Positions 1,930 through 26,000 of a stretch of 64,000 bases of DNA are shown here, piece after piece. The translations under genes were made by a program, and so were the position numbers. The notes under the pieces were generated by a model. The model did no database searches and had not been told where the DNA came from. It worked only from the letters and a program-made list of their open reading frames with translations. The first letter of the stretch is position 1, and the number at the start of each line of letters is the position of its first letter. The DNA comes from Posidonia oceanica (taxonomy: Eukaryota > Streptophyta > Magnoliopsida > Alismatales > Posidoniaceae): positions 80,086,501 through 80,150,500 of the forward strand of contig JAZBRS010000014.1 of NCBI GenBank assembly GCA_037176725.1. Direction: 5' to 3'.

Positions 1930-3115
1930 ATGGGTTTTCCTACTCTGCTGACTCCCGCACATTGCTCGGAAACCCTGCGAGAATGGATCGGCAGGCACAC
2001 TCAAGTAAACTGTGAAAAGCTGCGCCTGTGGGGCATACCAACCAAGCTGCTAAAGGCTGCTGATGTGGAGGTCAGCCGCCTCCTTCTGTGCGCCGCTGCG
2101 AGATTCTGGAAGCCGGCGCACCATGTCTTCCGTTTCAACAAAACTAAGCTGACACCTACACTGGAAGAGGTGCGTCGGATCTGCGGCTTTTCAAAGATCA
2201 TGGGGCCGCCTGTTTTCATGAGGCGCGACGGATATCTCCGGGTCCTGAGCCAACTGACTGGGCTCTCCACTCAAGCCTGCCAACAGAACCTGATCTGCAC
2301 CAGTGGACCAGAGCCTATGCTTCGCCTTGCACACTTTGATGATATCTTGAACAAGCGTGCTGAGGCTCCGAGGGTTTGTCATTCGCTTCCTGGGCGAACT
2401 AATCTTTACTCATGGCCGACTGACAGTGGCCATCGAGGTCGCAGAGCTTGCATTAGCTGTGGTGACCCAGCACATAGACCTGGCACCAGTCGTCTTGGCA
2501 GAGACTTATCGCAGGCTGGAGCGCATTTCTCATCGCTGCCGCCACTTCCACGGTTGCGGAGCACTCATACAAGTCTGGCTGACCGCACACTTAGAAATGG
2601 ACCTTCTACGCCCTCAAGCGCATGCTTTCGAAACCTACTGCAGTAGCGCCCGAACCAGAGCAAACAAGAGCGTCAAAGAAGAGTACGAGAGACTTTCAGC
2701 ACTGACTGACGACGCTGTGATCTGGCGCATCGTTCCCTCTGCAGCAGAGCCATTCACAATCTTCTTCAGCGCGCGTGACACACGGCTGATCATTCTTCCA
2801 GGCTTCACAGCAGGCGTAGAGTACCATCCAATCAGGGTCATGCGCCAGTTCGGCTTCCAGCAGGGCGCCTTCATTGACAGTACAGCGCCCGAGCTTCTAC
2901 AGACTTATCCTCTCAGCACCACTGCCCCGACCAAGAAGCTTGCTAGTCTGATGCAGCACGGGGTCCAATCTACAGACGTTGCAGCTGTGAGAGGTACAGG
3001 ATGCACTCCTGATTATGAAGCCGAAGTCCGACAGTTCTGGCCAATCACTGAAATTCCGCCAGGCGGCCCCCTATTCCCCGACTCCAGGCAGCCAAAGAAG
3101 GCCCGGGTTGACTAG
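1930..3115 (+). pseudogene. aORF copy A, plant-mobile-domain-like, frameshifted
   Basis: Copy of the extra ORF found downstream of pol in this family. It begins at ATG 1930 with MGFPTLLTPAHCSE and ends at TAG 3113-3115 with KKARVD, like the intact copies B and C. About 17 bp are missing at 2363/2364 compared with B (the bases between the codons for KRA and QGFVIRF). This shifts the frame, so the N-terminal part reads in one frame to 2646 and the C-terminal part in another from about 2357. The remaining sequence is close to B. The FW-P-HH-FRF and LTPTLEEV signature around residues 58-80 recalls the plant mobile domain/DUF7745 group. The family assignment is inference; the deletion is seen directly. 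Confidence 0.85.
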
Positions 3116-3410
3116 GCCCTTGTGCGACCATCATGTGGTCTTCTTTCAAATTGTGCTATACATTTCTGGCCTGCCGCAAGCATTGTACTTATCAAGATCA
3201 TATCAATGGAAACTATTTCTGCTTTCTGCTTGCACATCAAGACTCTTTGCTGCATTGCATATCATCATCATCATTATCTTGGGCCCTCTAATCAGACTCG
3301 CAGACATCCCAACGCGGCGAAGTCCTCAACACCCAATCCGGAGCCCAGAGCATCTGCAGGCCCGCGACACCAAGCTCCGCCGTCCGGCATCCCTAGCTGG
3401 TCATCCCCGG
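3116..3410 (+). other. Element A sequence after the aORF
   Basis: Non-coding segment between the aORF stop and the first tandem repeat. It has a (CAT)n-like stretch at about 3262-3275 and is shared with B and C in the same place. Small ORFs here are also present in B and C, but shift frame between copies and look incidental. Confidence 0.6.
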
Positions 3411-3720
3411 CTGGACCGCTGTCCTCAGCGGGCTAGCACCCCAAACTGCTCGGCGAAAGGTCCGTCAACCTGTCATCCACCTCAGCTGTTCATCCTCAGC
3501 TGAGTCCCTTGCGGACTGGCACCCCAAACTGCCCGGCGAAAGGTCCGTCAACCTGTCATCCTCCTCAGCTGTTCATCCTCAGCTGAGTCCCTTGCGGGCT
3601 GGCACCCCAAACTGCCCGGCGAAAGGTCCGTCAACCTGTCATCCTCTTCAGCTGTTCATCCTCAGCTGAGTCCCTTGCGGGCTGGCACCCCAAACTGCTC
3701 GACGATGGGTTCGTCAACCT
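3411..3720 (+). repeat. 83-bp tandem repeat, about 3.6 copies
   Basis: The motif CGGCGAAAGGTCCGTCAACC recurs at 3451, 3534 and 3617, with a degenerate copy at about 3700, giving an 83-bp period. Each unit holds GGCACCCCAAACTGC, which belongs to the stem-loop family described for the 3' domain (GCA/TGC arms). Confidence 0.9.
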
Positions 3721-3779
3721 ATCATCCATCCACTCACTTATCTATCTTTGCATCCTGATGCCAGGGGCGCATCGGCCAT

Positions 3780-3806
3780 CCCCTGGTATCATCCTAATAC
3801 CAGGGG
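3780..3806 (+). repeat. Perfect 10-bp inverted repeat
   Basis: CCCCTGGTAT at 3780-3789 pairs perfectly with ATACCAGGGG at 3797-3806 across a 7-nt loop. Element C carries the equivalent with the stem changed on both sides (CCCCTGGTGT at 31990-31999 and ACACCAGGGG at 32007-32016). Confidence 0.92.
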
Positions 3807-3839
3807 CATCTTTTGGCCGTCCTATGGTATCATCCCCAG

Positions 3840-4420
3840 CTGATCATCCCCAGCTGAGTCCTTTGCGGGCTGGCACCCCAAACTGCTCAACGAAAGGTCC
3901 GTCAACCTGACACTCTTCTCGGCTGGTCATCCCCAGTCGAGTCCCCAGTTGGTCGCCCCCAGCTGGATCATTATCTCTGCGGGCTGGCACCCCAAACTGC
4001 TCGGCGAAAGGTCCGTCAACCTGACACTCTTCTCGGCTGGTCATCCCCAGTCGAGTCCCCAGTTGGTCGCCCCCAGCTGGATCATTATCTCTGCGGGCTG
4101 GCACCCCAAACTGCTCGGCGAAAGGTCCGTCAACCTGACACTCTTCTCGGCTGGTCATCCCCTGTCGAGTCCCCAGTTGGTCGCCCCCAGCTGGATCATT
4201 ATCTCTGCGGGCTGGCACCCCAAACTGCTCGGCGAAAGGTCCGTCAACCTGACACTCTTCTCGGCTGGTCATCCCCAGTCGAGTCCCCAGTTGGTCGCCC
4301 CCAGCTGGATCATTATCTCTGCGGGCTGGCACCCCAAACTGCTCGACGAAAGGTCCGTCAACCTGACACTCTTCTCGACTGGTCACCCTCAGCTGAGTCC
4401 CTTGCGGGCTAGTACCCCAA
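3840..4420 (+). repeat. 114-bp tandem repeat, about 4.5 copies
   Basis: GTCCCCAGTTGGTCGCCCCC starts at 3941, 4055, 4169 and 4283, an exact 114-bp period. Because 114 is divisible by 3, the array stays open on both strands and yields spurious ORFs of over 200 codons each way. Element B has about three copies at 14530-14870; C has this repeat reduced to isolated units around 31675-31890. Confidence 0.93.
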
Positions 4421-4699
4421 ACTACTCGTCTGACAAGCATGACACTCTTGTCATCACTCCCTGCTTTCGATGCCAAGGACGCGCTGGCCAACCCCTGGTG
4501 TCATCCCGACACCTGGGGCATCTTTTGATCGCCCCTTGGTATCATTCTTTCCCTCTTTCCCCCATGACGTTCCTGGCGTCATGGGATGATTTCTTCTCAT
4601 CATTCCCTTATCCCTTCTTTGCCGGCCGATAAGTCCGATATCTTATCATTCTCATCATTCCCTCATCCCCTCTTTGTCGGCCGATAAGTCCGATATCTT

Positions 4700-4985
4700 A
4701 TCAATCAACGCTTCTCATCATGACCTCATCCCCCTCTTTAGCTTAGCTTCTCATCATGATCTCATCCCCCTCTTTAGATTAGTTTCTCATCATGATCTCA
4801 TCCCCCTCTTTAGCTTAGCTTCTCATCATGATCTCATCCCCCTCTTTAGCTCAACTTCTCATCATGATCTCATCCCCCTCTTTAGTTTAATTTCTCATCA
4901 TGATCTCATCCCCCTCTTTAGCTTAATTTCTCATCATGATCTCATCCCCCTCTTTAAATCAACTTCTCATCATTATCTCATCCCC
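4700..4985 (+). repeat. 36-bp minisatellite, 8 copies (element A)
   Basis: Units of 36 bp centred on TTCTCATCATGATCTCATCC. Each unit contains the palindrome ATCATGAT. The period is a multiple of 3, so one frame reads as a repeated 12-residue HHDLIPLFSLIS-type peptide. It is probably not a protein: it has no homology outside the array and is bounded by non-coding repeats. Copy number is 8 here, 22 in B and 25 in C. Confidence 0.93.
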
Positions 4986-5069
4986 TCTTTGCCGGCCGAT
5001 AAGTCCGATATCTTATCATTCTCATCATGATCATGCCCCCTCTTATCAATCTATCAATCACTCGTGCTA

Positions 5070-6100
5070 GGCTGATATCCGAAACTATCTCAGGCTGATA
5101 TTCCTAAACTATCATCTATCAATCACTCGTGCTAGGCTGATATCCGAAACTATCTCAGGCTGATATTCCTAAACTATCTTCTGGTCGATCCATGGTCGGC
5201 CCGCAGTTGTGTTATACGGCTGACATCCAGTAACTGTCCCTCGTAATTGCACTTTTCCAGTTGATAGGTCTGTAAGCTATCCACCGGTTGACAGGACCGT
5301 AAACTGTCGCTCCAGTTGATAGGTCTGTAAACTATCGCGTGCAGTTACGTTATACGGCTGATATCTTGTAACTATCACTCATGGTTTGTGGCTTCCAGTT
5401 GATAGGTCTGTAAACTATCCTCCAGTTGATAGGTCTGTAAACTATCCACCGGTTGACAGGACCGTAAACTGTCGTTAGGCTGATACTCCTAAACTATCAC
5501 CAGCAATTGCACTATACGGCTGATATCCAGTAACTATCCCTCATCATTGCAAGTTTCCAGTTGATAGGTCTGTAAACTATCCACCGGTTGACAGGACCGT
5601 AAACTGTCGCTCCAGTTGATAGGTCTGTAAACTATCCGCCAGTTGGTAGGACAGTAAACTACCACGCGCAATCATGTTATACGGCTGACATCCAGTAACG
5701 GTCCCTCGCAATGCCGTTTCCAGTTGATAGGACTGTAAACTATCCTCCAGTTGATAGGTCTGTAAACTATCTGCCGGTTGACAGGACCGTAAACTGTCGC
5801 TCCAGTTGATAGGTCTGTAAACTATCACGTGCAATTACGTTATACGGCTGATATCCAGTAACTATCACTCATGGTTTGTGGCTTCCAGTTGATAGGTCTG
5901 TAAACTATCCTCCAGTTGATAGGTCTGTAAACTATCCACCCGTTGATAGGTCTGTAAACTATCCGCCAGTTGATAGGACTGTAAACTATCCCACAACCAT
6001 GTTATACGGCTGATATCCAGTAACTATCACTCACAACTGCCTCCGGTTGACAGGACCGTAAACTGTCACTCCCGGTTGATAGGACCGTAAACTATCCGGA
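5070..6100 (+). repeat. Covarying stem-loop array (element A)
   Basis: Dozens of about 20-27 bp units form stem-loops with an 8-9 nt loop that usually ends in GTAAA, CTAAA or GAAA. Examples: GATA 5074-5077 with TATC 5086-5089; GACA 5222-5225 with TGTC 5235-5238; GATAG 5263-5267 with CTATC 5277-5281; GACAG 5290-5294 with CTGTC 5304-5308; GGTAG 5645-5649 with CTACC 5659-5663. Both arms change together while the loop is kept. Function is unknown; structure in the transcript is inferred. Confidence 0.9.
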
Positions 6101-6609
6101 CGATATGCCCGTCACCTTATCATTTTTTTTTTTCCTTTTCGGTGTGACCTTGTCCCAGGAAGACAAAGTCACGCACCCCCTTCCTGCGATAGGAGAGTTG
6201 GCCTCTCTCCCCTCGCGCCCCTTTCTCTTCTCTCTGCGAGCTTGCTCCCCGGGCGGGGACCAGCTGCACCCTGTTTTCCTTCGCTTTGTCGTGCAAGTCT
6301 GGCCTCCCTGCCCGATATTCGCACCACATCGCGCCTTTTTATCATTTTTTCTGCATCATCTCTGCACTTTCTTAGCTAGCACTGCATATTACTTTAGCAT
6401 CATCAGTATCACTTGCACAGCATCAGCATTTTCTTATAACTGCACTAACTTCTATACTAACTCTTGCATGGCATTCGCATCAGCATGCATACACACAGCA
6501 CAGCATCCATCTGCACTGGCATCTTGCATTGCGGCAACGGGCTACGATCTTCGGTGCATCCGCCGAATAAGTAGCTCATGCCCATAGCAACCCGCTGCTC
6601 CCGCCGGTC
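6101..6609 (+). other. Element A region before the purine tract
   Basis: Non-coding. It starts with a T-run at about 6123-6133, continues through a stretch shared with B and C, then a segment rich in GCAT and CAGCAT words (6350-6540). The ORF here is preserved among copies only because the copies are nearly identical. No RNA gene is recognised. Confidence 0.55.
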
Positions 6610-6693
6610 AGATGGGGTGTCTTGTCAACCCTGAGCAGCGGCCGCGCTCCGCTTGCCCTCGCTCAGGGAGGGGCATCTGTTGACACCCCATCT
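6610..6693 (+). promoter_or_regulatory. Polypurine tract inside a hairpin that crosses into LTR1
   Basis: The purine tract AGGGAGGGG (6665-6673) lies 4 nt before the LTR start and would prime plus-strand DNA synthesis. AGATGGGGTGTC (6610-6621) is the reverse complement of GACACCCCATCT (6682-6693, inside the LTR). Within it CCCTGAGC (6629-6636) pairs with GCTCAGGG (6661-6668), overlapping the purine tract. The arrangement recurs in B, C, D and E. The purine-tract role follows from position and LTR-retrotransposon biology; a role for the hairpin is inference. Confidence 0.85.
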
Positions 6694-8570
6694 TGGCAGG
6701 CCCGGACCCTTGGAGCCCCTCTTGGTGATTGCTGGATCAAACCCCAACCAAACTCTAACCCTAATCCTCCTCTCTACCCTTCAAAATCAGCCTATTTTGG
6801 CCCAAACCTTTACCCCCCTTCCCAACCTCAAAACCTATCCAAAATCCATAGGAAAACCCACCACTATCCACTCAACAAACCTACCCAAAAACCTAGGAGT
6901 TTCCAAACCCAACCCATCCTTGAAAACCCTAGAAAACCTAGGTGAAACTACCCTTTTTCTACACCTTGAAACCTCTCCAAAACCTCCTTAAAATCAAACC
7001 AAAACTTCAGAACTGACACTCCAAATCCTAGACTACCCACTCACCAATTTTCACCCCATTCCGAGACCCTCAAGACCCTCTCTCACCCAAATTATCATTT
7101 TCTCTCTCTGGGATTATCATTTTCTCTCTCCTCTCTCTCTCCTGATTATCATCTCTCTCTCTTCACCCCTTTCTTATCCTTTTTCTGGTCTGGCTGTGGG
7201 CCCCCTCTGTGCTTCTATCCTTCCACTATCTTATCCCTATTTTTACTTTATTTTTAACACTTTTTCTGAATTTTAAAAAATCGTTTTCCTCCAACCTATC
7301 TCTTTTCCTCTTATCTCCCTCTTTTTTCCATTTCTTTCTTCCTTCTCTTTTTCTTTTCTCTCTTATACAAAAATCCACAAAAACCCCTAAAAATCTGTAA
7401 AACCCCAAAACATAAAAGAAACAAATCAGAACCCTAAGAAAAACGATTAAAAAACATTAAACAAGCAATTAAAAACCTAAAGTTAAGTAAGGCAAGCTAA
7501 AAAGAGAACCAAACATGTAAGCTAAAAAATGCAAAACAAATCAAAAGAAAACACTGAAAAATCAAGAAAAAAGCTAAGATAAAATCAAAACCCACCAAAA
7601 ATAAAAACCCCATCAGAAGAATTAAAAGACAAACCCTAAAAAAAGAGAATTAAAAATCAAACACTAAAACAAATAATTAAAGAAGGCAAGAGACTTAACC
7701 TAATAAACATAAGAAAAACAAGTTAAAAACTTAATTAAAAAAGAAAAGAAAAACACATCTGAAAGACTTAAAAAACACCTTATCAAACCAGAAAAATCCA
7801 ACTAAAAACTTCAAGAAAAATCAATAAATAAAAATCAAAACATAACTTAAAAGACTTAAGAAGAAAAAAAAAAACCTAAGAAGACTAAAACTTAAGAACC
7901 TAAAACCAACCCTGATTAATACAAAATTAAATCCTAAAAAATCCTAATTAATATCCTAAGTGTCCAACAAGGGAAATACAATTTTTAGAACAATTTAAAA
8001 GAGGTTTAACAAACATTTAATCAAGTGAAAACCAATTAAAAACAAGACCAAAGCCCTAAAACCCTAATCAAGCCCAAAACACGTTAATCAACTCAAAATG
8101 ACCATTAAAAATTTTAATTAAAATCCTAATCTATAGCACAACCCTTCTAATATTTTTATTTATTTTTAGTTCCTTTTTACTAATTTTATTTCCCCATTCT
8201 ACCCTCTCTTTCTTTCTTACTTCTCTTTTTCTTTCTTCCTTTTCTTCACTGGGCCCTCCGGCCCGTTTCTTCTTTTTATCCTTTTATTTTTCTTCTTCGG
8301 CCGGCAGCACAGTCCGGCCCACGCTCCTTCTCCCTCCTTCTTCTTCCTCGCGCGTCAGCTGGATTCCTCCCGCGAGCTCGCTGCTACAGATCTCCCTCCA
8401 TCCATTCAAATTCAAGCCTCCATCATTTCGGTCTACAGCAGCTCGCCGACTCCTCCATCTCAGCACCAAATCCGGAGGCATTGAGTGCCGGTCGCCTCGC
8501 CGTCTCCTCTGCTGCAGTGCAACGCCGTTGGATTCAAATTTTTTCAGCGCGCGTGCCGGCAGCTCCTCCT

Positions 8571-8578
8571 CATATAAG
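8571..8578 (+). promoter_or_regulatory. Candidate TATA box of LTR1
   Basis: CATATAAG sits in a GC-rich context where the U3-R transition would be expected, and is preserved in LTR2. LTR3 has a degraded version (ATTTTTAAG). Transcription should start roughly 30 bp downstream. This is motif-based only. Confidence 0.45.
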
Positions 8579-11136
8579 CCTGCATCCTTCAGCTCCGTGG
8601 AGAGGGGGGCAGTGAGCGATCTTCAACTTCAGAGCGGACAGAGAATTCCGGAGCGAACCCAGAGTCGCGTCCAATTCCAGAGAGCATTTCCACCCTTTTC
8701 TTCCACTTGAAACGACTCCTTCCTCTTCTTCTCTGCCTCCTCCATTTCCAGAAGAGAGAGTGGTCAGAGGGAGTGGTTTGAGCGTCCACCTTTGCGTCCC
8801 GGAGAGAGCCTCCAATTCTCCAGCAGCTTCCACCCAATTCCTTTCCCCCTCTCTGCCGAAATCTTCAGCAAATCCTCCTCTTTCTTTCCCAGTAATCCGA
8901 CACCTTTCCCAGCCTCCATTCTTCCCCCCTTTGCTTCCCCAATCTCACCCAACACCAGACCTTCATCCTCCACCGCCCCATTGCCTTTCCACTGCCTGGA
9001 ACCACCCCAAATCACCTGAACACCACCTGAAGCTCCAACTGTAAACCCAACCTAACTCCATCCACAATTCCCTCTACTCCAGCTCACCGCCTTCTCCCAA
9101 ACTTCATCCAGAGACTCACTGGACCTCCACCTTCTCAAAACACCAACCATCAAACCCAGCCACCCACCACAAACCGAGAACTCCACTACAAACACCTGCA
9201 TCAACCACTGACCAAAAATCGACTCAACTCTCAAACTTCCTCCACAGCCTCCAGAATAGCAATCCAATCACCCAGAATCACTCCCCGAACCTCCAGTAAT
9301 CTTCCAGAACACTCCATCCAGCCTGAGGAGCAGCAAACACCCTCCCCGACCTCCGGCAGCATTCCGAGAACCCAAAAGTGCCGAATCCTCACCCGAGCTG
9401 TAGAGCTTCAGTCCGGTCGATCAAGAAGCACCGGAGGGATGTTCTGAGGCAGCTCCAACCTTCGCGAGCGACCGGCGACGCCTGCAGCGACCGGACGGCC
9501 TCCTCCGGCGACTGCTGAAGCCACCGACGTCGGGAGGGCGACTCAGACGCGGAATCAGGTCAGTCCAACCTCCCCTAGCTTCCTCTTCTCCCCCTGATGC
9601 TTTCCCGCCGCCCAGAAGTAGCTTTCCCAATCTCCTGCTCCGTCCTCGACTCGCCGGTCAGTTCTCCTTCTCCGGCGCCGGCTGCTGTTCCTCCGGACGC
9701 TCCGACCAACAGAATGCCGCTCCAGCAGTCTCCGAAGCTCCGCACGAATGCCAGCATCAAGCTCCGCCCTCCCGCGCCTCCTCAGCCTCCCCTGTCGGCG
9801 GCCACGAGTACTGCCGGCGTTCTGCTACAGTACTCGTCGCCGTCGACCAGTTACTGTGCATTTATTTTCTTGTTTATATAGTTTTAGGTGTAAATATTGC
9901 ATGTCTAGCTTAAGTTCTGTTATTTTTGCGTTTCAGTCCTCCTGCCATTTATTCTGCTTAGTTTTTAATTAAGTACCATGCTAAATTGCAGCTTATGTTT
10001 CTGTTTTTCCATATTTGCCTTTTAGTCCTGTTACTGTGCTGTGCTGTTATAATATTTTGTAGTTTAGCCCCTCTGCTTTTGGTTTTTGCATGTAAGTCCT
10101 GTCTTAAATCAGTTCATTCATTTGCATGTATTTTGCCATACTGCATTGCATTCTAGGACCTTCTTAGTTTCTGTTTTTGCATTTTAGTCCATTACACTGT
10201 AGGACTTAGGTTTTATTTTTATTTTTCGCTTGCTGCATTGCATATTTTTCCCCCTGGTTTTGCATTTTTGCATATAGGTCCATTTTAAATGGACAGTAGC
10301 TGTTATGCATGTATTTTAGCCTATTAAATTGCATTTTCAACCCTGTTTTTTTCAAAAATTACACTGCAGTCCTGTTATCTGATTTTCAGAACATTTTTTC
10401 CATATGAAATTGCATATTTGACCCCTGCATGATTTAAAAATCACACATAGGTCCTTGCATCTTTCAAAAAACTATGTAAAAAGACCATTTTGCCCCTAAC
10501 TTGCATCCTAGCTCCTATGCTTACCAAATTGCATATAGACCCTCCCCTAGTATCCTCAGACTCCCCAGAACCTTGTTTTCTGGAAAATTTGCATTTTAGA
10601 CCCCAGTTTTTTCCAAAATTACATTCTGATTTCTTTTTGGCTTCAAAACCTCTTCTAAAGCATACCTTCTTTTCAAAACAGCTTTCTGAGCTTAGTTTTT
10701 TTGCAAAATGAAGCCCTGTCCTCCCCTGTTTTCAAAATCCTTTCCTGTGGGCCCCTGTTTTCTGGAAAATTTGCATTTTTAGTCCCTTTCTCCCTCAAAA
10801 TGCTTTCTGAACTCCTGGCTTTTCCAGTTGCTTCTCTTCGCTTTTTCTTGCTTTTGCATGCATCCTGCATTCATTTAGTCTTGCATTTTAGCATCCTTCT
10901 GCACACACTAAGCACTTTTAGCTCCCTTTCACCTGGGAGGACCTTTTTGCACATCCCTAGGGCCTCCTGAACACCTAGATCTGTTCTTCTCCCCTATTCT
11001 GGCCCTCCTGCCTTGGAGCTGCGATATCTTCCGATCCGGCCGTTGGATCTTCTCAAGTAAGCTGCCCAGGCGACCGCAGTGAAGCGCTCTTCAGCATGGA
11101 CCAGACAGATTTCAAATCAGGCTCCCGGATTTCCAG

Positions 11137-11939
11137 GTATGTCCTCCTGAACCTCTGCATTGTATCCATTTGCATGCCATTTGCACAGTTTTCCTTGTTT
11201 TCGCTTTCTGTCTCTTTGAGCATGTAGAATAGGGCTTCCCCTTTCTACTTGTATCTTCCAATCTCCGTTTCGCGTATCCCTGTGTGTTTTGTGTTGAGTT
11301 TTCCTTATATTTGCCACTTAATGTGACTTTCTTCCCCCTTTTCCACGATCCGATCGCATCGCGAGCTTTGGGCAGCGTGCGAGACACACCGTGGAACGGT
11401 TTAGTGGGAAACAGTCGCAAAGAGGTGGTAATCCCTCCGTTGGCCCCCTCTCCCCTCTGTAGGTCTTCACACCTATTCTGAGTGGTCCTAAATGACGTCT
11501 GTTCTTACACACACGTTGTTTTGTCTCCCCTTTGGCCTCTTCTAATCTTTTTCTGCATTCTTGCATTCGCATGGCTTTTCCGAGGTTTTTGCTTCGCTGT
11601 TTTGGCACCGTTTCGCGTGCCCGCCCTCGTTTTGGCACCGTTTTGCATGCCCTTCTGTTCTCTTGCCTTGTTTCGCACGCAGCCTTGCTTTCTCGCTTGT
11701 TTTACGTGCCGCTCTCGTTTTTGCAACGTTTTGCGTGTCTCTTTGCTGCCTTGTCTCGTTTTGCGTGCTACCTTGCTTTCTCGCTTGTTTTGCGTGCCGA
11801 TTTTGTTCTTTTGCTTCGTTTCGCGTGCGTTGCTCATCTCTCGCCTCGTTTTGCGTATTTTATGCTGTTTTCCCTTGCATGCCGACTACATTGCATGGTT
11901 TCCTCGTTGTTTTGCTTTCTCGCCTGCATTTGCATATAG
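11137..11939 (+). other. Possible intron inside LTR1
   Basis: CCAG/GTATGT at 11133-11142 matches a plant 5' splice site. The downstream end TTTGCATATAG/GG at about 11930-11940 follows a T-rich stretch and resembles an acceptor. The donor is kept as GTATGT in LTR2 (21643) and LTR3 (39231) and as GTAAGT in diverged LTR6 (57313). The acceptor region is kept too. Splicing is inferred, not shown. Confidence 0.35.
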
Positions 11940-12123
11940 GGCTGTGATGCTTACTGTCTGGAGTTCTCACGAGCTAGGTTTCGCCTGGTTCGGAACACAG
12001 ACAGCGCAGCTGAGCACTTAGAGAGCACGTTTACTTCCTTGCTTTGTTTCTTCCCACTTAGAGCACACCTTGGGCATTCATTTAGGCATTTATAGGCACG
12101 TAGGCATTCATTCCTGCATTTCC

Positions 12124-12233
12124 CTGCGTATGCGAGCGTAAGCCTAGAAAGACCGATTCTCGGGCGTGTCGGGGTGCCTAACACCTTCCCCGCGCGTAAC
12201 AGGAGTCCTTACCCTGTCTTCTGGCCCGCAATG
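12124..12233 (+). promoter_or_regulatory. Highly conserved LTR block (LTR1)
   Basis: Block running from GCGTATGCGAGCGTAAGCC through GGGGTGCCTAACACCTTCCC to the GGAGTCCTTACCC region. It is present in LTR1, 2, 3, 4, 5 (reverse strand) and 6, even where the surrounding LTR sequence cannot be aligned. It can form a small hairpin (GGTG/CACC around CCTAA). The function is unknown; RNA processing or packaging are possibilities. Confidence 0.7.
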
Positions 12234-12514
12234 ACCGTACTGCCCTCATCCTAGGCTAGAGTCATCTCATTTGCATGTATTTGCATTTGTTTCCTTTGCA
12301 TTGCTTTGCTTTGCATTTCTTGCTTGGTTTTGCGTGTTAATTCACGCATTTCCCCCAGTTTTCCATGTCTCCCGTTAATGGACATGGTGGCGACTCTGAT
12401 TTGTCTTATCTTTCTTTTTTCTCCTCGATTTCAAGCGTTTTCGAGTTGAGCCTCTTCCTCGGATCCAATCGCCGCTAAATCTAGCGAGCCTGATTCCGAT
12501 CGGGATCGCTACAG

Positions 12515-12530
12515 TGGCGACTCTGCTGGG
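12515..12530 (+). promoter_or_regulatory. Primer-binding site, tRNA-Arg type
   Basis: TGGCGACTCTGCTGGG begins one base after the LTR1 3' end. This sequence is the minus-strand primer-binding site of Ogre-type elements, complementary to the 3' end of tRNA-Arg. It is the only complete PBS in the window. Confidence 0.88.
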
Positions 12531-12772
12531 CTGGTCCAGATTTCCTACCAACCCTCGCCCCCGTGTCCGCAAGGCTGCTGTAGAATCCCCCTGCTCATCA
12601 GTGCTCAATTGCTATGTTCTGTTATCACTTTGCCTAGATGCATATGGAACTACTTTATCAGCCTCAGTTTCTGCTTGTTGTCAAAGATTACATACCTGCG
12701 AGATCTGACTGTTTATTCATAGCAGGTACCTCAAGCCTTGCAGTAATCAGCTTGTCTTCTGCAACCAGTATA

Positions 12773-13975
12773 ATGGGTTTTCCTACTCTGCTGACTCCCG
12801 CACATTGCTCGGAAACCCTGCGAGAAAGGATCGGCAAGCTCACTCAAGTAGACTGTGAAAAGCTGCGCCTGTGGGGCATACCAACCAAGCTGCTAAAGGC
12901 TGCTGATGTGGAGGTCAGCCGCCACCTTCTGTGCGCTGCCGTGAGATTCTGGAAGCTGGCGCACCATGTCTTCCGTTTCAACAAAACTGAGCTGACACCT
13001 ACACTGGAAGAGGTGCGTCGGATCTGCGGCTTTTCAAAGATCATGGGGCCGCCTGTTTTCATGAGGCGCGACGGATATCTCCGGGTCCTGAGCCAACTGA
13101 CTGGGCTCTCCACTCAAGCCTGCCAACAGAACCTAATCTGCACCAGTGGACCAGAGCCTATGCTTCGCCTTGCACACTTTGATGATATCTTGAACAAGCG
13201 TGCTGACCTCGGAGATGAGCTGTGGCTCCAAGGGTTTGTCATTCGCTTCCTGGGCGAACTAATCTTCACTCATGGCCGACTGACAGTGGCCATCGAGGTC
13301 GTAGAGACTGCATTAGCTGTGGTGACCCAGCACATAGACCTGGCACCAGTCGTCTTGGCAGAGACTTATCGCGGGCTGGACCGCATTTCTCATCGCTGCC
13401 GCCACTTCCACGGTTGCGGAGCACTCATACAAGTCTGGCTGACCGCGCACTTAGAAATGGACCTTCTACGCCCTCAAGGGCATGCTTTCGAAGCCTACTG
13501 CAGTAGCGCCCGAACCAGAGCAGACAAGAGCGTCAAAGAAGAGTACGAGAGACTGTCAGCACTGACTGACGACGCTGTGATCTGGCACATCATTCCCTCT
13601 GCAGCAGAGCCATTCACAATCTTCTTCAGCGCGCGTGACACGCGGCTGATCATTCTTCCAGGCTTCACAGCAGGCGTAGAGTACCATCCAATCAGGGTCA
13701 TGCGCCAGTTCGGCTTCCAGCAGGGCGCCTTCATTGACAGTACAGCGCCCGAGCTTCTACAGACTTATCCTCTCAGCACCACTGCCCCGACCAAGAAGCT
13801 TGCTAGTCTGATGCAGCACGGGGTCCAATCTACAGACGTTGCAGCTGTGAGAGATACTGGATGCACTCCTGATTATGATGCCGAAGTCCGACAGTTTTGG
13901 CCAATCACTGAAATTCCGCCAGGCGGCCCCCTATTCCCCGACTCCAGGCAGCCAAAGAAGGCCCGGGTTGACTAG
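12773..13975 (+). CDS. aORF copy B, intact 400-aa plant-mobile-domain-like protein
   Basis: Complete ORF from ATG 12773 (MGFPTLLTPAHCSE) to TAG 13973-13975 (KKARVD). The frame is open further upstream, but the ATG is shared by copies A, C and D, so I use it. Landmarks: LRLWGIPTKLLKAADVEVSR near residue 30; FWKLAHHVFRF near 58; LTPTLEEVRRICGFSK near 73; HRCRHFHGCGALIQVWL near 210; a PGF-AGVEYHPIRVMRQFGFQ stretch near 295. The FW-P-H-FRF, TPTLEE and GC-LIQVWL pattern resembles the plant mobile domain/DUF7745 group, known both in host proteins and inside plant LTR elements. No catalytic motif, signal peptide or membrane segment is seen. In B it is the first ORF after the leader. Function is unknown; the coding nature is well supported, the family less so. 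Confidence 0.85.
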   Translation: MGFPTLLTPAHCSETLRERIGKLTQVDCEKLRLWGIPTKLLKAADVEVSRHLLCAAVRFWKLAHHVFRFNKTELTPTLEEVRRICGFSKIMGPPVFMRRDGYLRVLSQLTGLSTQACQQNLICTSGPEPMLRLAHFDDILNKRADLGDELWLQGFVIRFLGELIFTHGRLTVAIEVVETALAVVTQHIDLAPVVLAETYRGLDRISHRCRHFHGCGALIQVWLTAHLEMDLLRPQGHAFEAYCSSARTRADKSVKEEYERLSALTDDAVIWHIIPSAAEPFTIFFSARDTRLIILPGFTAGVEYHPIRVMRQFGFQQGAFIDSTAPELLQTYPLSTTAPTKKLASLMQHGVQSTDVAAVRDTGCTPDYDAEVRQFWPITEIPPGGPLFPDSRQPKKARVD

Positions 13976-14529
13976 GCCCTTGTGCGACCATCATGTGGTC
14001 TTCTTTCAAATTGTGCTGTACATTTCTGGCCTGCCGTAGGCATTGTACTTATCAAGATCATATCAATGGAAACTGTTTCTGCTTTCTGCTTGCACATCAA
14101 GACTCTCTGCTGCATTGCATATCATCATCATCATTATCTTGGGCCCTCTAATCAGACTCACAGACATCCCAACGCGGCGAATTCCTCAGCACCCAATTCG
14201 GAGCCCAGAGCATCTGCAGGCCCGCGACACCAAGCTCCGCCGTCCGGCGTCCCCAGCTGGTCATCCCCGGCTGGACCGTTGTTCTCTGCTGGCTGGCACC
14301 CCAAACTGCCCGGCGAAAGGTCCGTCAACCTGTCATCCACCTCAGCTGTTCATCCTCAGCTGAGTCCCTTGCGGGCTGGCACCCCAAACTGCTCGACGAT
14401 GGGTTCGTCAACCTATCATCCATCCACTCACTTATCTATCTTTGCATCCTGATGCCAGGGGCGCATCGGCCATCTCCAGGTATCATCCTGATACCAAGGG
14501 CATCTTTCAGCGGCCCTTTGGCAACATCC
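13976..14529 (+). other. Element B sequence after the aORF
   Basis: Counterpart of 3116-3840 in A, with the 83-bp repeat reduced to about two units (14290-14400). It contains an imperfect version of the CCCCTGGTAT hairpin around 14475. Non-coding. Confidence 0.65.
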
Positions 14530-14890
14530 CCAGCTGATCATCCCCAGTAGAGTCCTTTGCGGGCTGGCACCCCAAACGGCTTGGCGAAAGGTCCGTCAAC
14601 CTGACACTCTTCTCGGCTGGTCATCCCCAGTCGAGTCCCCAGTTGGTCGCCCCCAGCTGGATCATTATCTTTGCGGGCTGGCACCCCAAACTGCTCGGCG
14701 AAAGGTCCGTCAACCTGACACTCTTCTCGACTGGTCATCCCCAGTCGAGTCCCCAGTTGGTCGCCCCCAGCTGGATCAATATCTTTGCGGGCTGGCACCC
14801 CAAACTGCTCGGCGAAAGGTCCGTCAACCTGACACTCTTCTCGACAGGTCATCCCCAGCTGAGTCCCCAGCTGATCACCCTCAGCTGAGT
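14530..14890 (+). repeat. 114-bp tandem repeat, about 3 copies (element B)
   Basis: CGGCGAAAGGTCCGTCAACC-type motifs at about 14583, 14697 and 14811 give the same 114-bp period as in A. Open on both strands by period, not by coding. Confidence 0.9.
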
Positions 14891-15194
14891 CCCTTGCGGG
14901 CTGGTACCCCAAACTACTCGTCTGACAAGCACGACACTCTTGTCATCACTCCCTGCTTTCGATGCCAAGGACGCGCTGGCCAACCCCTGGTGTCATCCCG
15001 ACACTCGGGGCATCTTTTGATCGCCCCTTGGTATCATTCTTTCCCTCTTTCCCCCACGACGTTCCTGGCGTCATGGGATGATTTCTTCTCATCATTCCCT
15101 TATCCCTTCTTTACCGGCCGATAAGTCCGATATCTTATCATTCTCATCATTCCCTCATCCCCTCTTTGTCGGCCGATAAGTCCGATATCTTATC

Positions 15195-15985
15195 AATCAA
15201 CACTTCTCATCAAGATCTCATCCCCCTGTTTAGCTTAGCTTCTCATCATGATCTCATCCCCCTCTTTAGCTTAGCTACTCATCATGATCTCATCCCCCTC
15301 TTTAGCTTAGCTTCTCATCATGACCTCACCCCCCTCTTTAGCTTAATTTCTCATCATGATCTCATCCCCCTCTTTAGCTTAGCTTCTCATCATGATCTCA
15401 TCCCCCTCTTTAGCTTAGCTTCTCATCATGACCTCACCCCCCTCTTTAGATTAATTTCTCATCATGATCTCATCCCCCTCTTTAGCTTAGCTTCTCATCA
15501 TGACCTCACCCCCCTCTTTAGCTTAATTTCTCATCATGATCTCATCCCCCTCTTTAGCTTAGCTTCTCATCATGATCTCATCCCCCTCTTTAGCTTAGCT
15601 TCTCTTCATGATCTCATCCCCCTCTTTAGCTTAATTTCTCATCATGACCTCATCCCCCTCTTTAGCTTAATTTCTCATCATGATCTCATCCCCCTCTTTA
15701 GCTTAGCTTCTCATCATGACCTCATCCCCCTCTTTAGCTTAGCTTCTCATCATGATCTCATCCCCCTCTTTAGATTAGTTTCTCATCATGATCTCATCCC
15801 CCTCTTTAGCTTAGCTTCTCATCATGATCTCATCCCCCTCTTTAGCTCAACTTCTCATCATGATCTCATCCCCCTCTTTAGTTTAATTTCTCATCATGAT
15901 CTCATCCCCCTCTTTAGCTTAATTTCTCATCATGATCTCATCCCCCTCTTTAAATCAACTTCTCATCATTATCTCATCCCCTCTT
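15195..15985 (+). repeat. 36-bp minisatellite, 22 copies (element B)
   Basis: Same 36-bp unit as in A and C (TCTCATCATGATCTCATCCC core), expanded to 22 copies with higher-order pairing of SLA and SLI type units. The frame stays open because the period is 36. Confidence 0.93.
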
Positions 15986-16065
15986 TGCCGGCCGATAAGT
16001 CCGATATCTTATCATTCTCATCATGATCATGCCCCCTCTTATCAATCTATCAATCACTCGTGCTA

Positions 16066-16620
16066 GGCTGATATCCGAAACTATCTCAGGCTGATATTCC
16101 TAAACTATCATCTATCAATCACTCGTGCTAGGCTGATATCCGAAACTATCTCAGGCTGATATTCCTAAACTATCTTCTAGTCGATCCATGGTCGGCCCGC
16201 AGTTGTGTTATACGGCTGACATCCAGTAACTGTCCCTCGTAATTGCACTTTTCCAATTGATAGGTCTGTAAGCTATCCACCGGTTGACAGGACCGTAAAC
16301 TGTCGCTCCAGTTGATAGGTCTGTAAACTATCGCGTGCAATTACGTTATACGGCTGATATCTTGTAACTATCACTCATGGTTTGTAGCTTCCAGTTGATA
16401 GGTCTGTAAACTATCCTCCAGTTGATAGGTCTGTAAACTATCCACCAGTTGATAGGTCTGTAAACTATCCGCCAGTTGATAGGACTGTAAACTATCCCAC
16501 AACCATGTTATACGGCTGATATCCAGTAACTATCACTCACAACTGCCTCCGGTTGACAAGACCGTAAACTGTCACTCCCGGTTGATAGGACCGTAAACTA
16601 TCCGGACGATAAGCCCGTCA
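16066..16620 (+). repeat. Covarying stem-loop array (element B)
   Basis: Shorter version of the array in A, about 550 bp instead of about 1030. It includes GATA/TATC, GACA/TGTC, GATAG/CTATC and GACAG/CTGTC stem-loops with the same loop motifs. The middle part of the A array is missing, consistent with deletion between repeats. Confidence 0.88.
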
Positions 16621-17115
16621 CCTTATCATTTTTTTTTTTCCTTTTCGGCGTGACCGTGTCCCAGGAAGACAAAGTCACGCACCCCCTTCCTGCGATAGGT
16701 GAGTTGGCCTCTCTCCCCTCGCGCCCCTTTCTCTTCTCTCTGCGAGCTTGCTCCCCGGGCGGGGACCAGCTGCACCCTGTTTTCCTTCGCTTTGTCATGC
16801 AAGTCTGGCCTCCCTGCCAGATATTCGCACCACATCGCGCCTTTTTATCATTTTTTCTGCATCATCTCAGCACTTTCTTAGCTAGCACTGCATATTACTT
16901 TAGCATCATCAGTATCACTTGCACAGCATCAGCATTTTCTTATAACTGCACTAACTTCTATACTAACTCTTGCATGGCATTCGCATCAGCATGCATACAC
17001 ACAGCACAGCATCCATCTGCACTGGCATCTTGCATTGCGGCAACGGGCTACGATCTTCGGTGCATCCGCCGAATAAGTAGCTCATGCCCATAGCAACCCG
17101 CTGCTCCCGCCGGTC

Positions 17116-17199
17116 AGATGGGGTGTCTTGTCAACCCTGAGCAGCGGCCGCGCTCCGCTTGCCCTCGCTCAGGGAGGGGCATCTGTTGACACCCCATCT
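17116..17199 (+). promoter_or_regulatory. Polypurine tract and enclosing hairpin (element B/LTR2)
   Basis: Same arrangement as at 6610-6693: AGATGGGGTGTC arm, inner CCCTGAGC/GCTCAGGG pair, purine tract AGGGAGGGG at 17171-17179, and the closing GACACCCCATCT arm inside LTR2. Confidence 0.85.
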
Positions 17200-20100
17200 T
17201 GGCAGGCCCGGACCCTTGGAGCCCCTCTTGGAGATTGCTAGATCAAACCCCAACCAAACCCTAACCCTAATCCTCCTCTCTACCCTTCAAAATCAGCCTA
17301 TTTTGGCCCAAACCTTTACCCCCCTTCCCAACCTCAAAACCTACCCAAAATCCATAGGAAAACCCACCACTATCCACTCAACAAACCTACCCAAAAACCT
17401 AGGAGTTTCCAAACCCAACCCATCCTTGAAAACCCTAGAAAACCTAGGTGAAACTACCCTTTTTCTACACCTTGAAACCTCTCCAAAACCTCCTTAGAAT
17501 CAAACCAAAACTTCAGAACTGACACTCCAAATCCTAGACTACCCACTCACCAATTTTCACCCCATTCCGAGACCCTCAAGACCCTCTCTCACCCAAATTA
17601 TCATTTTCTCTCTCTAGGATTATCATTTTCTCTCTCCTCTCTCTCTCCTGATTATCATCTCTCTCTCTTCACCCCTTTCTTATCCTTTTTCTGGTCTGGC
17701 TGTGGGCCCCCTCTGTGCTTCTATCCTTCCACTATCTTATCCCTATTTTTACTTTATTTTTAACACTTTTTCTGAATTTTAAAAAATCGTTTTCCTCCAA
17801 CCTATCTCTTTTCCTCTTATCTCCCTCTTTTTTCCATTTCTTTCTTCCTTCTCTTTTTCTTTTCTCTCTTCTACAAAAATCCACAAAAACCCCTAAAAAT
17901 CTGTAAAACCCCAAAACATAAAAGAAACAAATCAGAACCCTAAGAAAAACGATTAAAAAACATTAAACAAGCAATTAAAAACCTAAAGTTAACTAAGGCA
18001 AGCTAAAAAGAGAACCAAACATGTAAGCTAAAAAATGCAAAACAAATCAAAAGAAAACACTGAAAAATCAAGAAAAAAGCTAAGATAAAATCAAAACCCA
18101 CCAAAAATAAAAACCCCATGAGAAGAATTAAATGACAAACCCTAAAAAAAGAGAATTAAAAATCAAACACTAAAACAAATAATTAAAGAAGGCAAGAGAC
18201 TTAACCTAATAAACATAAGAAAAACAAGTTAAAAACTTAATTAAAAAAGAAAAGAAAAACTCATCTGAAAGACTTAAAAAACACCCTATCAAACCAGAAA
18301 AATCCAACTAAAAACTTCAAGAAAAATCAATAAATAAAAATCAAAACATAACTTAAAAGACTTAAGAAGAAAAAAAAAAACCTAAGAAGACTAAAACTTA
18401 AGAACCTAAAACCAACCCTGATTAATACAAAATTAAATCCTAAAAAATCCTAATTAATATCCTAAGTGTCCAACAAGGGAAATACAATTTTTAGAACAAT
18501 TTAAAAGAGGTTTAACAAACATTTAATCAAGTGAAAACCAATTAAAAACAAGACCAAAGCCCTAAAACCCTAATCAAGCCCAAAACACGTTAATCAACTC
18601 AAAATGACCATTAAAAATTTTAATTAAAATCCTAATCTATAGCACAACCCTTCTAATATTTTTATTTATTTTTAGTTCCTTTTTACTAATTTTATTTCCC
18701 CATTCTACCCTCTCTTTCTTTCTTACTTCTCTTTTTCTTTCTTCCTTTTCTTCACTGGGCCCTCCGGCCCGTTTCTTCTTTTTATCCTTTTATTTTTCTT
18801 CTTCGGCCGGCAGCACAGTCCGGCCCACGCTCCTTCTCCCTCCTTCTTCTTCCTCGCGCGTCAGCTGGATTCCTCCCGCGAGCTCGCTGCTACAGATCTC
18901 CCTCCATCCATTCAAATTCAAGCCTCCATCATTTCGGTCTACAGCAGCTCGCCGACTCCTCCATCTCAGCACCAAATCCGGAGGCATTGAGTGCCGGTCG
19001 CCTCGCCGTCTCCTCTGCTGCAGTGCAACGCCGTTGGATTCAAATTTTTTCAGCGCGCGTGCCGGCAGCTCCTCCTCATATAAGCCTGCATCCTTCAGCT
19101 CCGTGGAGAGGGGGGCAGTGAGCGATCTTCAACTTCAGAGCGGACAGAGAATTCCGGAGCGAACCCAGAGTCGCGTCCAATTCCAGAGAGCATTTCCACC
19201 CTTTTCTTCCACTTGAAACGACTCCTTCCTCTTCTTCTCTGCCTCCTCCATTTCCAGAAGAGAGAGTGGTCAGAGGGAGTGGTTTGAGCGTCCACCTTTG
19301 CGTCCCGGAGAGAGCCTCCAATTCTCCAGCAGCTTCCACCCAATTCCTTTCCCCCTCTCTGCCGAAATCTTCAGCAAATCCTCCTCTTTCTTTCCCAGTA
19401 ATCCGACACCTTTCCCAGCCTCCATTCTTCCCCCCTTTGCTTCCCCAATCTCACCCAACACCAGACCTTCATCCTCCACCGCCCCATTGCCTTTCCACTG
19501 CCTGGAACCACCCCAAATCACCTGAACACCACCTGAAGCTCCAACTGTAAACCCAACCTAACTCCATCCACAATTCCCTCTACTCCAGCTCACCGCCTTC
19601 TCCCAAACTTCATCCAGAGACTCACTGGACCTCCACCTTCTCAAAACACCAACCATCAAACCCAGCCACCCACCACAAACCGAGAACTCCACTACAAACA
19701 CCTGCATCAACCACTGACCAAAAATGGACTCAACTCTCAAACTTCCTCCACAGCCTCCAGAATAGCAATCCAATCACCCAGAATCACTCCCCGAACCTCC
19801 AGTAATCTTCCAGAACACTCCATCCAGCCTGAGGAGCAGCAAACACCCTCCCCGACCTCCGGCAGCATTCCGAGAACCCAAAAGTGCCGAATCCTCACCC
19901 GAGCTGTAGAGCTTCAGTCCGGTCGATCAAGAAGCACCGGAGGGATGTTCTGAGGCAGCTCCAACCTTCGCGAGCGACCGGCGACGCCCGCAGCGACCGG
20001 ACGGCCTCCTCCGGCGACTGCTGAAGCCACCGACGTCGGGAGGGCGACTCAGACGCGGAATCAGGTCAGTCCAACCTCCCCTAGCTTCCTCTTCTCCCCC

Positions 20101-23021: not shown

Positions 23022-26000
23022 ATTACGGAGCCCCAGGTCATCTCTTTCACGAGTGATGAGCTACCTCCGGCGGGGATTAATCACAACCAGCCCCTATTCG
23101 TCACGGTGCAGTTCAAAAACTTTCGCATTCCCCTAACACTGGTTGATAATGGGTCAGGCATTAAGGTCTGCCCCTTGCGTACAGCAACCAAGCTCGGATT
23201 CAAAGCCGAGGACATCACGCCAGCCGTGAAGGGAATGACAGCCTTTGACAACACTCACCATGACGCTCTAGGGATTCTGATTATCCTCCTGGCTATCGGT
23301 CCGGTCGTCTTCGACGTAGAATTCTATGTCGTCGACTTGAAGCCTAACTTCAATCTTCTGCTTGGGCGCCCTTGGCTCCACAAGCATCAGGTCCTTCCTT
23401 CGACCCTCCATCGAATGATAAAGTACCGTCGTGGCGATGATGTCATTGTCGTCATGGCGGAGAACTTTGAGAAGGAGCGGATTGAAGCGGTCTCTCCCGT
23501 GTCCTCGCAATCTATCCCGTTTGACCCCGAGACATCTGAAGCCCTCTATCGCGTTAATCGGTGTGAGCCGATTAACTTCATTCCTGATCTTGAACGTGTC
23601 AACTCCTTGACCGTTCACAGCAACCCCTTTCGAATGGTCGAGAATGTATGTCACAGGTGGGGTTACATAAAGGGTACGCCACTCGGGCGTCACGGCCAAG
23701 GGATCGCGGAGCCGATCGTAGCAGTGGAGCGAAGGAAATCTGAAGGCCTCGGCTACGAACCCAAGACCAACGAAGATCACTACTTCCAACTCAAGGACCA
23801 TGCACCAGCCATTCCCAGAGACCTCACTAACTTTACCAGTGCAGGAATTCTGGAATCAACCGATTACCAAGCCACAGCGCCGGCAGAGGATTGGGTGTGT
23901 ATTGAGGACTACTACTCGGATGAGGAGCAGTCTGATGCAACAGAGGCAGTCCCAATCAACCCAGCAGAAACAGTAGTCAGAGCAGAGGCCCCACAATCAT
24001 TCTATTCAGCTTTTCCTTTGGCAGAAACAGCAGGCAGCTCAGCAGGCCCTGTGGCAGAACTGGTAAGTTCCCACTCTCTTGCAGCCACATCAGCTTCTCA
24101 AGATCAGACAGCAACAGTGCAGGAGTCAGGGACACTCCTTCTGGCAGAACCAAGCATGCTACCAGCGGTCACAGAAACATCAGTGCCACTGTCCCTATCT
24201 CTGGAGGGGCAGTTAATCAACTCAGTCAGTAGCGTGGCCCAGCCCGCACCCTCAGCATCATCTTCAGGAATGCAGCTGGCGCAGTCCGCTCCGCATTCTC
24301 CTGACAACCTGCAGCAGCTCTCATGGCAAGACCCTATGGCGTCAGAGGCTGCGCTCTCTCAGTTACGGCCCGATACAAAAGGCCAACTGAGCACTACATT
24401 CTCCGGGCCCTTGAGCCCTCCAAAGAGCACCCCTGCTTATTCTTCAGCAGTGACCCTGGCAGCATATCCATCTATGGCACCGCTGACTTGTCTATTTGGG
24501 CCTTCTACATCAGAGTCGCCACCATCGGACGCGCCCGTGAACCAGATCATGCAGATTCCCAGGGCAGCAATCCGCCTTGCAGCCGGGCCAGTGCCGCAGG
24601 CCCCCGGCGCCTACTACGTCGACTCCCCCTCAGACGAGGAAGAAGGAGTGGCGATAGAGGCCCAGGTCGATTCTTGGATGTCCGACTTAGAGCTACTCTA
24701 TCAAGAACAAATCAAGTCGATAGCAGAAGACCTGGCAGAGCATCAAGCTGCAGAAAGGAAAGGAAAAGCCGTAGTTACGGATCCTCCTCTGCAAGAGGAC
24801 CATGCTTCTATCATGGTCCTAGAAGACTCAGCAGCACCGGACTCCCCTAGACCAGATGAGCTCATCACTCTTCAACCAGAAGGTAGGTCTAGGTGGTTTG
24901 TGCAACCCATGCCTCACCTGAGCTATGCATCGAGCGGCAGTGACCAGATCAGCCGCCAGTCCGGCATATCCTCCACGAGCACACTAGAAGACCTAGAGGG
25001 AGGAGCATCAGCAGTAGAAGCAGCAGCAGCAGAACAGAATGCCTCAGCAGTAAAGCAGTCAGCAGCCTCAGCAGCACAGTCGGCAGAACAGTCAGCAGAG
25101 CACTCAGCAGAGTCAGTCAGGCCAGAGAGAGCAGCAGAAGGAGTTGTTGGGACGGAGGTCGCGCACCGAGGCTACAAGAATACTCGAGTAAGCGTGACCA
25201 TCCTAAAGCGTCACCAGGGCCAAGCAGCGGAACACATACACTCTTTCAACATCACAAGCCCTTCCTTCGAGAAAGAGATCCTCTCAGAACTTGTTGCTTA
25301 TGGAGAAGAGGATGATACGGGCACAGACGAGACTGACAAACCTTTGCCCAAGTTCCGGCCCTATGACGACGACCCAGAAGGCCCCAACCTCCATGTCGAA
25401 GAAGAAACGGAGGTTGTCAACATTGGCACAGCTGAGGAAGTCAGAGAAGCTTGCATCAGTGCCCAGCTGTCCGCCCAGGCTCGAGCTGAATTCATCGCAT
25501 TCCTGAAAGAATATGCGGATGTCTTCGCCTGGAGTTATGAAGATATGGTCGGCCTTGACATAGAGATAGTGGTGCACAAGCTGCCATTAAATCCAGATGC
25601 CAAGCCAGTAAAGCAGAAGCTAAGAAGATGGCGACCGCAGTGGCTGCTCATGATCAAAGAAGAGATAATGAAGCAGCTTGGAGTCAACTTTCTGAAGGTC
25701 GTTCTTTATCCTGAATGGCTGGCAAACATTGTACCTGTGCCAAAGAAAGATGGCCGAATCCGGATCTGCATCGACTACATGGACCTGAACAAGGCGAGTC
25801 CCAAGGACGACTTTCCATTGCCCCACATTGACGTCCTAGTCGATAATACAGCGGGCCACAAAATGCTCTCCTTCGTGGACGGCTTCTCTGGATACAATCA
25901 GATCAAATTGGCAGAAGAAGACATGGAAAAAACTTCATTCATCACCCCTTGGGGAGTCTTCTGCTACCAAGTCATGCCGTTCGGCCTGAAGAATGCTGGT

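Follow-up and report, generated by a model that had tools for sequence, protein, structure and literature searches.

Short inverted-repeat units lie at 5070–6100 of the window (the whole stretch of DNA that was analysed, 64 kb from a genome of 2.96 Gb), and the question they raise is what keeps their two arms matched when the arm sequence itself varies. The first-pass annotation saw in this interval a domain of covarying stem-loops with dozens of compensatory changes, and put forward selection for pairing in RNA or as DNA cruciforms, with hairpin-templated repair as the alternative. The matched-arm units that it quoted are present in the interval, and they sit in a hypervariable 3′ UTR, between the last gene of a retrotransposon and its end repeat.

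The window consists of nested Ty3/gypsy LTR retrotransposons of the Tat clade. A domain search places RT, RNase H, RVT_3 (a second RNase H) and integrase in this order in element C, and in elements A, B, C and D an ORF on the sense strand has a plant mobile domain (PF10536) that scores above the cut-off. The relevant coding features and the LTR used below are:

23106–28691, + strand, gag-pol part of element C (G-patch, RT and RNase H at 23106–26972; second RNase H and integrase at 27021–28691)
1930–3115, + strand, aORF of element A, plant mobile domain in two overlapping frames (PF10536 above cut-off at 2357–3115, below it at 1930–2646)
6677–12513, + strand, LTR1, approximately 5.8 kb, 98.35 % identical to LTR2 at 17186–23021

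In one survey, this order of RT, both RNase H domains and integrase marks Ogre and Retand elements, and an extra ORF with the plant mobile domain is reported for 57 % of Ogre elements (PMC6317226). A further Ogre feature, variable tandem repeats between the coding region and the 3′ LTR, is also present. Judged by the aRH order, the plant-mobile-domain ORF and the 3′ tandem repeats, the elements are Ogre-type (Ty3/gypsy, Tat), and such elements mark the genome as a plant's.

Element B (12514–17185) lies in tandem with A, LTR1 being common to both; it has kept its LTRs, the stretch adjoining the 5′ LTR, the aORF and the 3′ domain, and gag-pol is absent. LTR2 is followed by the gag-pol sequence of C and not by the post-LTR stretch of B, so that A and B look to have been inserted into C. 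Between A and C, the hairpin domain and tail (4985–6676 vs 33094–34773) are 96–97 % identical, as against 92.8 % for the aORF and 74–93 % for the LTR, a difference that could be due to selection or to recombination. LTR1 also contains an inverted repeat at 9794–9847 with 20-base arms that include one mismatch and one G.T. No relatives were found in the viral contigs scanned, and a 19-base match in one bacterial bin (L001) is near the chance level, approximately two being expected in 257 billion bases. A protein search gave ten proteins, among them one tobacco protein at 23 % identity.

The repeat units of the 3′ domains are laid out as follows, z+ and z− being fold-energy z on the sense and the other strand:

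3425–4405, + strand, 83/114-bp tandem units after the aORF of A, with GGCA/TGCY, GRCG/CGTC and CAGCTG-type hairpins (TRF and arm-blind search; z+ −1.36, z− −0.67)
4624–4703, + strand, two GATAAG-TCCGATAT-CTTATC units, a third being at 4994 (arm-blind search)
4711–4990, + strand, 36-bp tandem array (TRF)
5044–6100, + strand, 27-bp and 24-bp inverted-repeat units of A (TRF and arm-blind search; z+ −0.29, z− −0.26)
16040–16605, + strand, 27/24-bp units in B, shortened (unit search)
33154–34205, + strand, 27/24-bp units in C (unit search)
44987–48399, + strand, 40-bp satellite of GATAAG-GCTTGTA-CTTATC units in D (TRF; 86 of 88 copies used as a decay control)

The idea that one domain is kept across all elements thus applies in part: the 27/24-bp arrays are found in A, B and C, and the units of D are related but different. 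The GATAAG-TCCGATAT-CTTATC units have perfect arms in 171 of 188 cases from 39 loci. Locus L011 has another arm type at its position 2802 in reverse-complement orientation, GATGA/TCATC around the loop TCCAAAAC, the arms being read by eye. Arrays of the 36-bp repeat at 15203–15986 (21.8 copies) and 32210–33100 (24.8 copies) leave one frame open, giving ORFs of 286 and 337 aa that are perhaps an effect of the repeat period only.

The coupling of the arms was examined by searching the 3′ domains of A, B and C with loop and flank only, and then dropping candidates with >40 % mismatched pairs. Among 48 27-bp units found in this way, 33 carry GATAG/CTATC, 11 GACAG/CTGTC and one GGTAG/CTACC, and three are broken; among 15 24-bp units with the loop TCCAGTAAC or one near it, nine carry GATA/TATC and five GACA/TGTC, and one is broken, and a further 14 24-bp units all carry GATA/TATC. 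Arms are therefore perfect in 45/48 and 28/29 units, and no GATAG arm is joined to a CTGTC arm, or the reverse, among these units. The same is seen genome-wide, where one mask with two free loop letters counted 295,901 GATAG/CTATC and 46,539 GACAG/CTGTC units and 2,224 hybrids in a total of 344,664 (1,226 GATAG/CTGTC, giving GU, and 998 GACAG/CTATC, giving AC, a ratio of 1.23), all of these repeat counts being lower bounds; approximately 82,000 hybrids would be expected from the same counts if the arms were independent. The arms of the 27/24-bp units are tightly coupled throughout the genome. A list made by hand from the GRYA-type families has 17 distinct arm combinations with 68 pairs, of which 53 are Watson–Crick; 20,000 permutations gave at most 50. 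Inverted repeats cover 533 bases of 5001–6000 as against 126 in shuffles (z 8.7), with z of 5 to 14 in the matching parts of B, C and D and −2.5 to 2.1 in 1-kb windows of the gag-pol of C and of LTR1–LTR3, and coverage is raised outside the domain too, at 50001–51000 (z 4.4) and 62001–63000 (z 3.9).

These units do not form stable RNA stem-loops. In the 27/24-bp stretches, fold-energy z averages −0.29 (A), −0.12 (B) and −0.31 (C) for the sense strand, the values for its complement being −0.26, −0.05 and −0.06; the stems named in 5070–6100 have mean local pairing probabilities of 0.05–0.30, and stems of 4–5 bp fold no better than shuffled sequence. Fold excess on the sense strand was found at 3425–4710 and in the corresponding stretches of the other two elements, B and C (z+ −1.4 to −2.6), and the flanking stretches in D have no sense-strand fold bias. 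The strongest structure lies outside 5070–6100, just upstream at 4408–4597, where RNAalifold predicted five helices, without being given them, from 38 core copies. The core and its relatives in the window, with their scores for the model R1, are:

4408–4597, + strand, RNA core of element A (alignment A1, RNAalifold, tree-aware null; 240 bits, the model's own row)
4411–4414/4423–4426, + strand, helix 1 of the A core, and 4431–4437/4447–4453, helix 2 (RNAalifold)
4469–4478/4534–4543, + strand, helix 3, which encloses helix 4 at 4492–4502/4508–4518 (RNAalifold)
4561–4569/4577–4585, + strand, helix 5 (RNAalifold)
14900–15089, + strand, core in B (233 bits, a row of the model)
31905–32095, + strand, core in C (228 bits, a row of the model)
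44592–44768, + strand, diverged core in D, no helix 5 seen (91 bits)
48583–48759, + strand, second diverged core-like stretch, farther down the 3′ domain of D (61 bits)
3681–3881, + strand, second, degenerate core copy in A (86 bits)
14375–14575, + strand, second, degenerate core copy in B (70 bits)

Preceded by the last CCCCAAAC unit and followed by the first GATAAG unit, the core occurs once per element in that register. All 20 R1 matches listed in the window are on the sense strand, the weaker ones lying for the most part in the 83/114-bp units. Coding was rejected as an explanation of the core, as single-base indels occur in A1 and ORFs follow the repeats.

Alignment A1 holds the 38 core copies (37 distinct) from one genome, i.e. 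those of A, B and C and of 35 loci, 20 of them from elements picked for the 27-bp unit and 15 for the AC hybrid; L036, L041, L047 and L048, in which no core was recognised, and L040, where the segment is LTR, are left out, and the structure was first noticed in some of the loci included. For the hand-named structure, pairing holds in 98.2 % of the 1,517 cells of the 37 distinct rows, compared to 35–54 % for slid partners. Changes on both sides affect seven pairs and 45 cells, examples being CCCCTGGTGTC/GACACCAGGGG and CCCCTGGTATC/GATACCAGGGG; of 500 shuffles, none reached 45 double cells and 16 reached seven double pairs, and further pair types show no excess over the shuffles (464/500 reach the count). 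In helix 3, A-U has become U-A in four rows; in helix 5, two pairs occur as C-G, U.G or U-A, and 14 rows show a change of G-C to A-U. Covariation that survives correction for phylogeny had been the proposed check, and here it was found for the core. In a home-made null (not R-scape) that takes the tree from 113 unpaired columns and places the 3′ changes at random, 2,000 runs gave a mean of 94.7 % and a maximum of 97.2 % paired cells (observed 98.2 %), a mean of 5.8 and a maximum of 25 double cells (observed 45) and a mean of 2.4 double pairs (observed 7, P 0.001), though recombination can blur the A1 tree.

The state of the pairs points in the same direction. The outer pair of helix 1 is G.U in 33 of 37 rows (AU in three, unpaired in one), as is pair 4 of helix 3 (AU in three, GC in one). 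On the internal branches of the A1 tree, there are six double Watson–Crick changes, five from Watson–Crick (WC) to GU, two from GU to WC, none from WC to AC and two others, and on terminal branches two double changes, 18 WC to GU, 14 WC to AC, six GU to WC and three others; broken events on internal branches number two in A1 and one in the D-type set described below. When the two sets are pooled, the ratio of WC to GU and WC to AC is 8 : 0 on internal and 23 : 19 on terminal branches (Fisher 0.018), and in A1 alone the internal and terminal branches differ with p 0.11 for paired vs broken and p 0.13 for GU vs AC. Counts of mutations nearby are 39 for C>T, 36 for G>A, 17 for T>C and 6 for A>G, a spectrum that by itself should not favour GU.

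The D-type copies form a second set. Their search motif occurs 6,708 times in the genome, and R1 matches all 40 loci fetched (two in part), but these loci were found by an exact motif and the matches are therefore no independent proof. Alignment A2 has 37 rows, 35 of the 40 loci and two window stretches; L056, L068, L071, L072 and L073, where parts of the region are missing by eye, are omitted, and a further 16 rows without an F12-like helix 2 were dropped, leaving 21 rows for the test. This set does not differ significantly from the tree-aware null (P 0.19, 0.51 and 0.25). The D-type copies do not preserve the inner half of helix 3; at its eighth pair, which lies beyond the seven that entered the count, approximately 11 of the 21 rows have the same A.A (by eye, A2). 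Five rows have in common a C.A in helix 4, an inherited mismatch that was not counted because the 3′ arm of helix 4 was the search motif.

Taken together, the tree-aware covariation and the internal changes to G.U without any to A.C, at the pairs counted, support selection for pairing in the core, probably in sense RNA. Mismatches in the core fall mainly on terminal branches, and we read 8 : 0 against 23 : 19 as selection for pairing in the sense RNA of active elements, followed by neutral decay of the DNA copy after its insertion. The suggestion of selection for pairing is thus supported for 4408–4597, but for the interval in which it was made, 5070–6100, there is no fold excess and little preference for GU. 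On balance, the 3′ UTR of these Ogre-type elements would appear to hold a sense-strand RNA structure whose pairing is kept by selection while the element is active.

A curated excess of GU over AC in the window (28 vs 12 among distinct arm variants, p 0.017, the set including a few chance rows in one family) was not upheld and is not used. It was dropped in view of an unbiased scan of 7- and 8-bp stems, in which GU is not in excess over AC (22 vs 24; 8 vs 15), and of the 43 loci examined for the 27/24-bp units.

Repair of hairpins in the chromosome was offered as a way of matching arms without selection, and the satellite of D, as decaying DNA, speaks against it. In its 86 copies, 41 of 516 pair cells deviate (22 other, 10 GU, eight AC and one double), with changes per site of 0.027 and 0.054 in the stem arms, 0.037 in the loop and 0.097 in the rest. 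Only one of the 41 deviating cells is compensated, and hence matching is not restored in the chromosome. The 27-bp units led to the same rejection of repair as the keeper of the arms: among 713 units in 43 loci, 41 deviate (17 GU, 13 AC and 11 other) and none is newly compensated. Arm sites are changed at 41/7,130 and fixed loop and flank sites at 122/9,269, in a set that omits 20 AC-hybrid units (the reason for fetching L031–L050) and units that differ from the known arm types by more than two letters.

Template switching between the arms, during reverse transcription or DNA replication, is the alternative that fares best, and we consider it unlikely. It is a described process that can create and fix hairpins and accounts for matched arms and compensatory changes (PMC8794818). 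It could act at the reverse-transcription stage, one satellite copy has the double change GATTAG/CTAATC, and GU and AC are alike in the unbiased scan. However, it should remove G.U and alone does not explain why G.U predominates at two pairs of the core, nor why the internal branches have GU but no AC changes at the counted pairs; within the chromosome, the single compensated cell among 41 in the satellite also stands against it. Further, 17 of 20 loop words are never inverted in the four 3′ domains, and the three that are, 3 to 5 times, are short.

A founder effect, in which chance produced a small number of arm types that then spread by whole-unit copying or gene conversion, so that the covariation simply reflects copy number, is improbable. 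Some features do look like copying, as in A–C the GACAG units share a CCGG flank and a GACC loop and one arm switch between A and C coincides with a replaced downstream flank. Yet GATAG arms are also found with the CCGG flank and GACC loop, the core beats the tree-aware null, and at three 24-bp and one 27-bp orthologous positions both arms switch while the loop and one flank stay constant. The 27-bp position has GGTAG/CTACC in 10 loci (and one more with another loop) vs GATAG/CTATC in four, one 24-bp position has GACA/TGTC in eight vs GATA/TATC in seven, and at two others the arm types are split 21 vs 5, where the pattern may fit two places per element, and 25 vs 1. Odd states at these positions are isolated: GACA/TATC is seen twice, AACA/TGTC and GACA/GGTC once each, and the 27-bp units have a few more. 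Copying as the sole cause of arm change does not account for such joint switches. Double changes are thus real but few, and the "dozens" of compensatory changes largely count copies of few events. In a comparison of A with C across eight unit families, 8/354 stem, 10/315 loop and 47/928 remaining sites differ. Nine pairs differ between A and C or between A and B: five of them have lost pairing in one of the copies, GU accounts for two, another is a double change accompanied by a changed flank, and the last is G-C vs A.A. Like the satellite of D, this comparison shows no restoration of matching in the chromosome.

Still less probable is it that the units are DNA-level dyads bound by a dimeric protein, perhaps the aORF product, in the way that VANC anti-silencing proteins reportedly bind short motifs in VANDAL transposons, for although tandem arrays of short dyads do lie beside an element-encoded protein, the distance between the arms differs from family to family (loops of 4 to 9 bases) in a way not expected of a rigid dimer site, the loop ends stay alike while the arms vary, a tolerant protein would allow the hybrid arms that are so rare genome-wide and a preference for G.U is not expected. 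DNA cruciforms, also proposed, we judge implausible with arms of 4–5 bp, and they too would not favour G.U.

If selection acts on pairing in the sense RNA while the elements are active, the domain may act in cis on the full-length RNA. Element B has kept its 3′ domain without gag-pol and similar arrays are reported from elements without pol (PMC7004042), which fits a cis role as a candidate. Our guess is that many hairpins would be presented to Gag or to the aORF protein and so serve packaging or dimerisation by Gag, or aORF protein binding; this would be the most likely route. The weak 27/24-bp units would then appear to be lower-stability relatives of the same hairpin grammar, spread by tandem duplication. 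A bolder version, which is tentative and rather doubtful, is a multivalent 3′ packaging or assembly domain in which the covarying core is joined by dozens of weak hairpins that give avidity to Gag or the aORF protein. Were it true, the weak hairpins would have the loop end AAC in common and stems that drift within the limits of a pairing rule, the hypervariability of Ogre 3′ UTRs would be stem drift inside a functional RNA array, and the satellites grown from the 3′ UTR would be its escaped parts.

Stem-loops for packaging or dimerisation of retroviruses such as MMTV are reportedly located near the 5′ end, and the core here, predicted from sequence, differs in lying near the 3′ end; they would work alike if the core binds Gag. 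Retrozymes, which are said to be plant retrotransposons with hammerhead ribozymes, resemble these elements in being plant retrotransposons with structured RNA, but no hammerhead was found here. Searches of Rfam gave no family in the whole window at the gathering score and no hammerhead among the weak matches in 3100–6676 and 44400–51700 at E up to 10, and a hammerhead or other Rfam RNA was rejected on these grounds.

The known repeats of Tat/Ogre elements are closer. As described in two reports, they are tandem repeats in the 3′ UTR with satellites derived from them, placed like those here between the coding region and the 3′ LTR, and form short interleaved arrays of which one unit may grow to a satellite, as in D (PMC7004042, PMC3305785). 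Unlike the repeats described there, the units here are inverted repeats and are accompanied by a covarying core; the accessible text of PMC3305785 has no mention of hairpin, palindrome, secondary structure or stem, and that of PMC7004042 none of palindrome or secondary structure, with "inverted" appearing once. The region between POL and the 3′ LTR of Retand elements is likewise long, with an extra ORF and, in about half of the elements, tandem arrays, whose origin and function are stated to be unknown; the extra ORFs there are antisense and mostly TRP28, whereas here the ORF is sense and has the plant mobile domain (PMC11963269). In the literature on Ogre and Retand 3′ repeats, mainly that outside subscription papers, no title reporting a covarying RNA structure was found. 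The analysis suggests a working RNA structure at a place for which these papers describe variable tandem repeats.

Ogre elements, which are very abundant, are among the chief contributors to genome size and satellites in plants, and the covarying core offers a defined target for probing and deletion. The contrast between G.U on internal branches and neutral changes on terminal ones may also be a general way to find selected RNA structure in dead transposon copies. Elsewhere in the window, a separate hairpin family, GTTGGACGC...GCGTCCAAC, is found at 52633–52900, 58835–60590 and 62190–63710, often as tandem pairs, inside LTR-like stretches and in both orientations.
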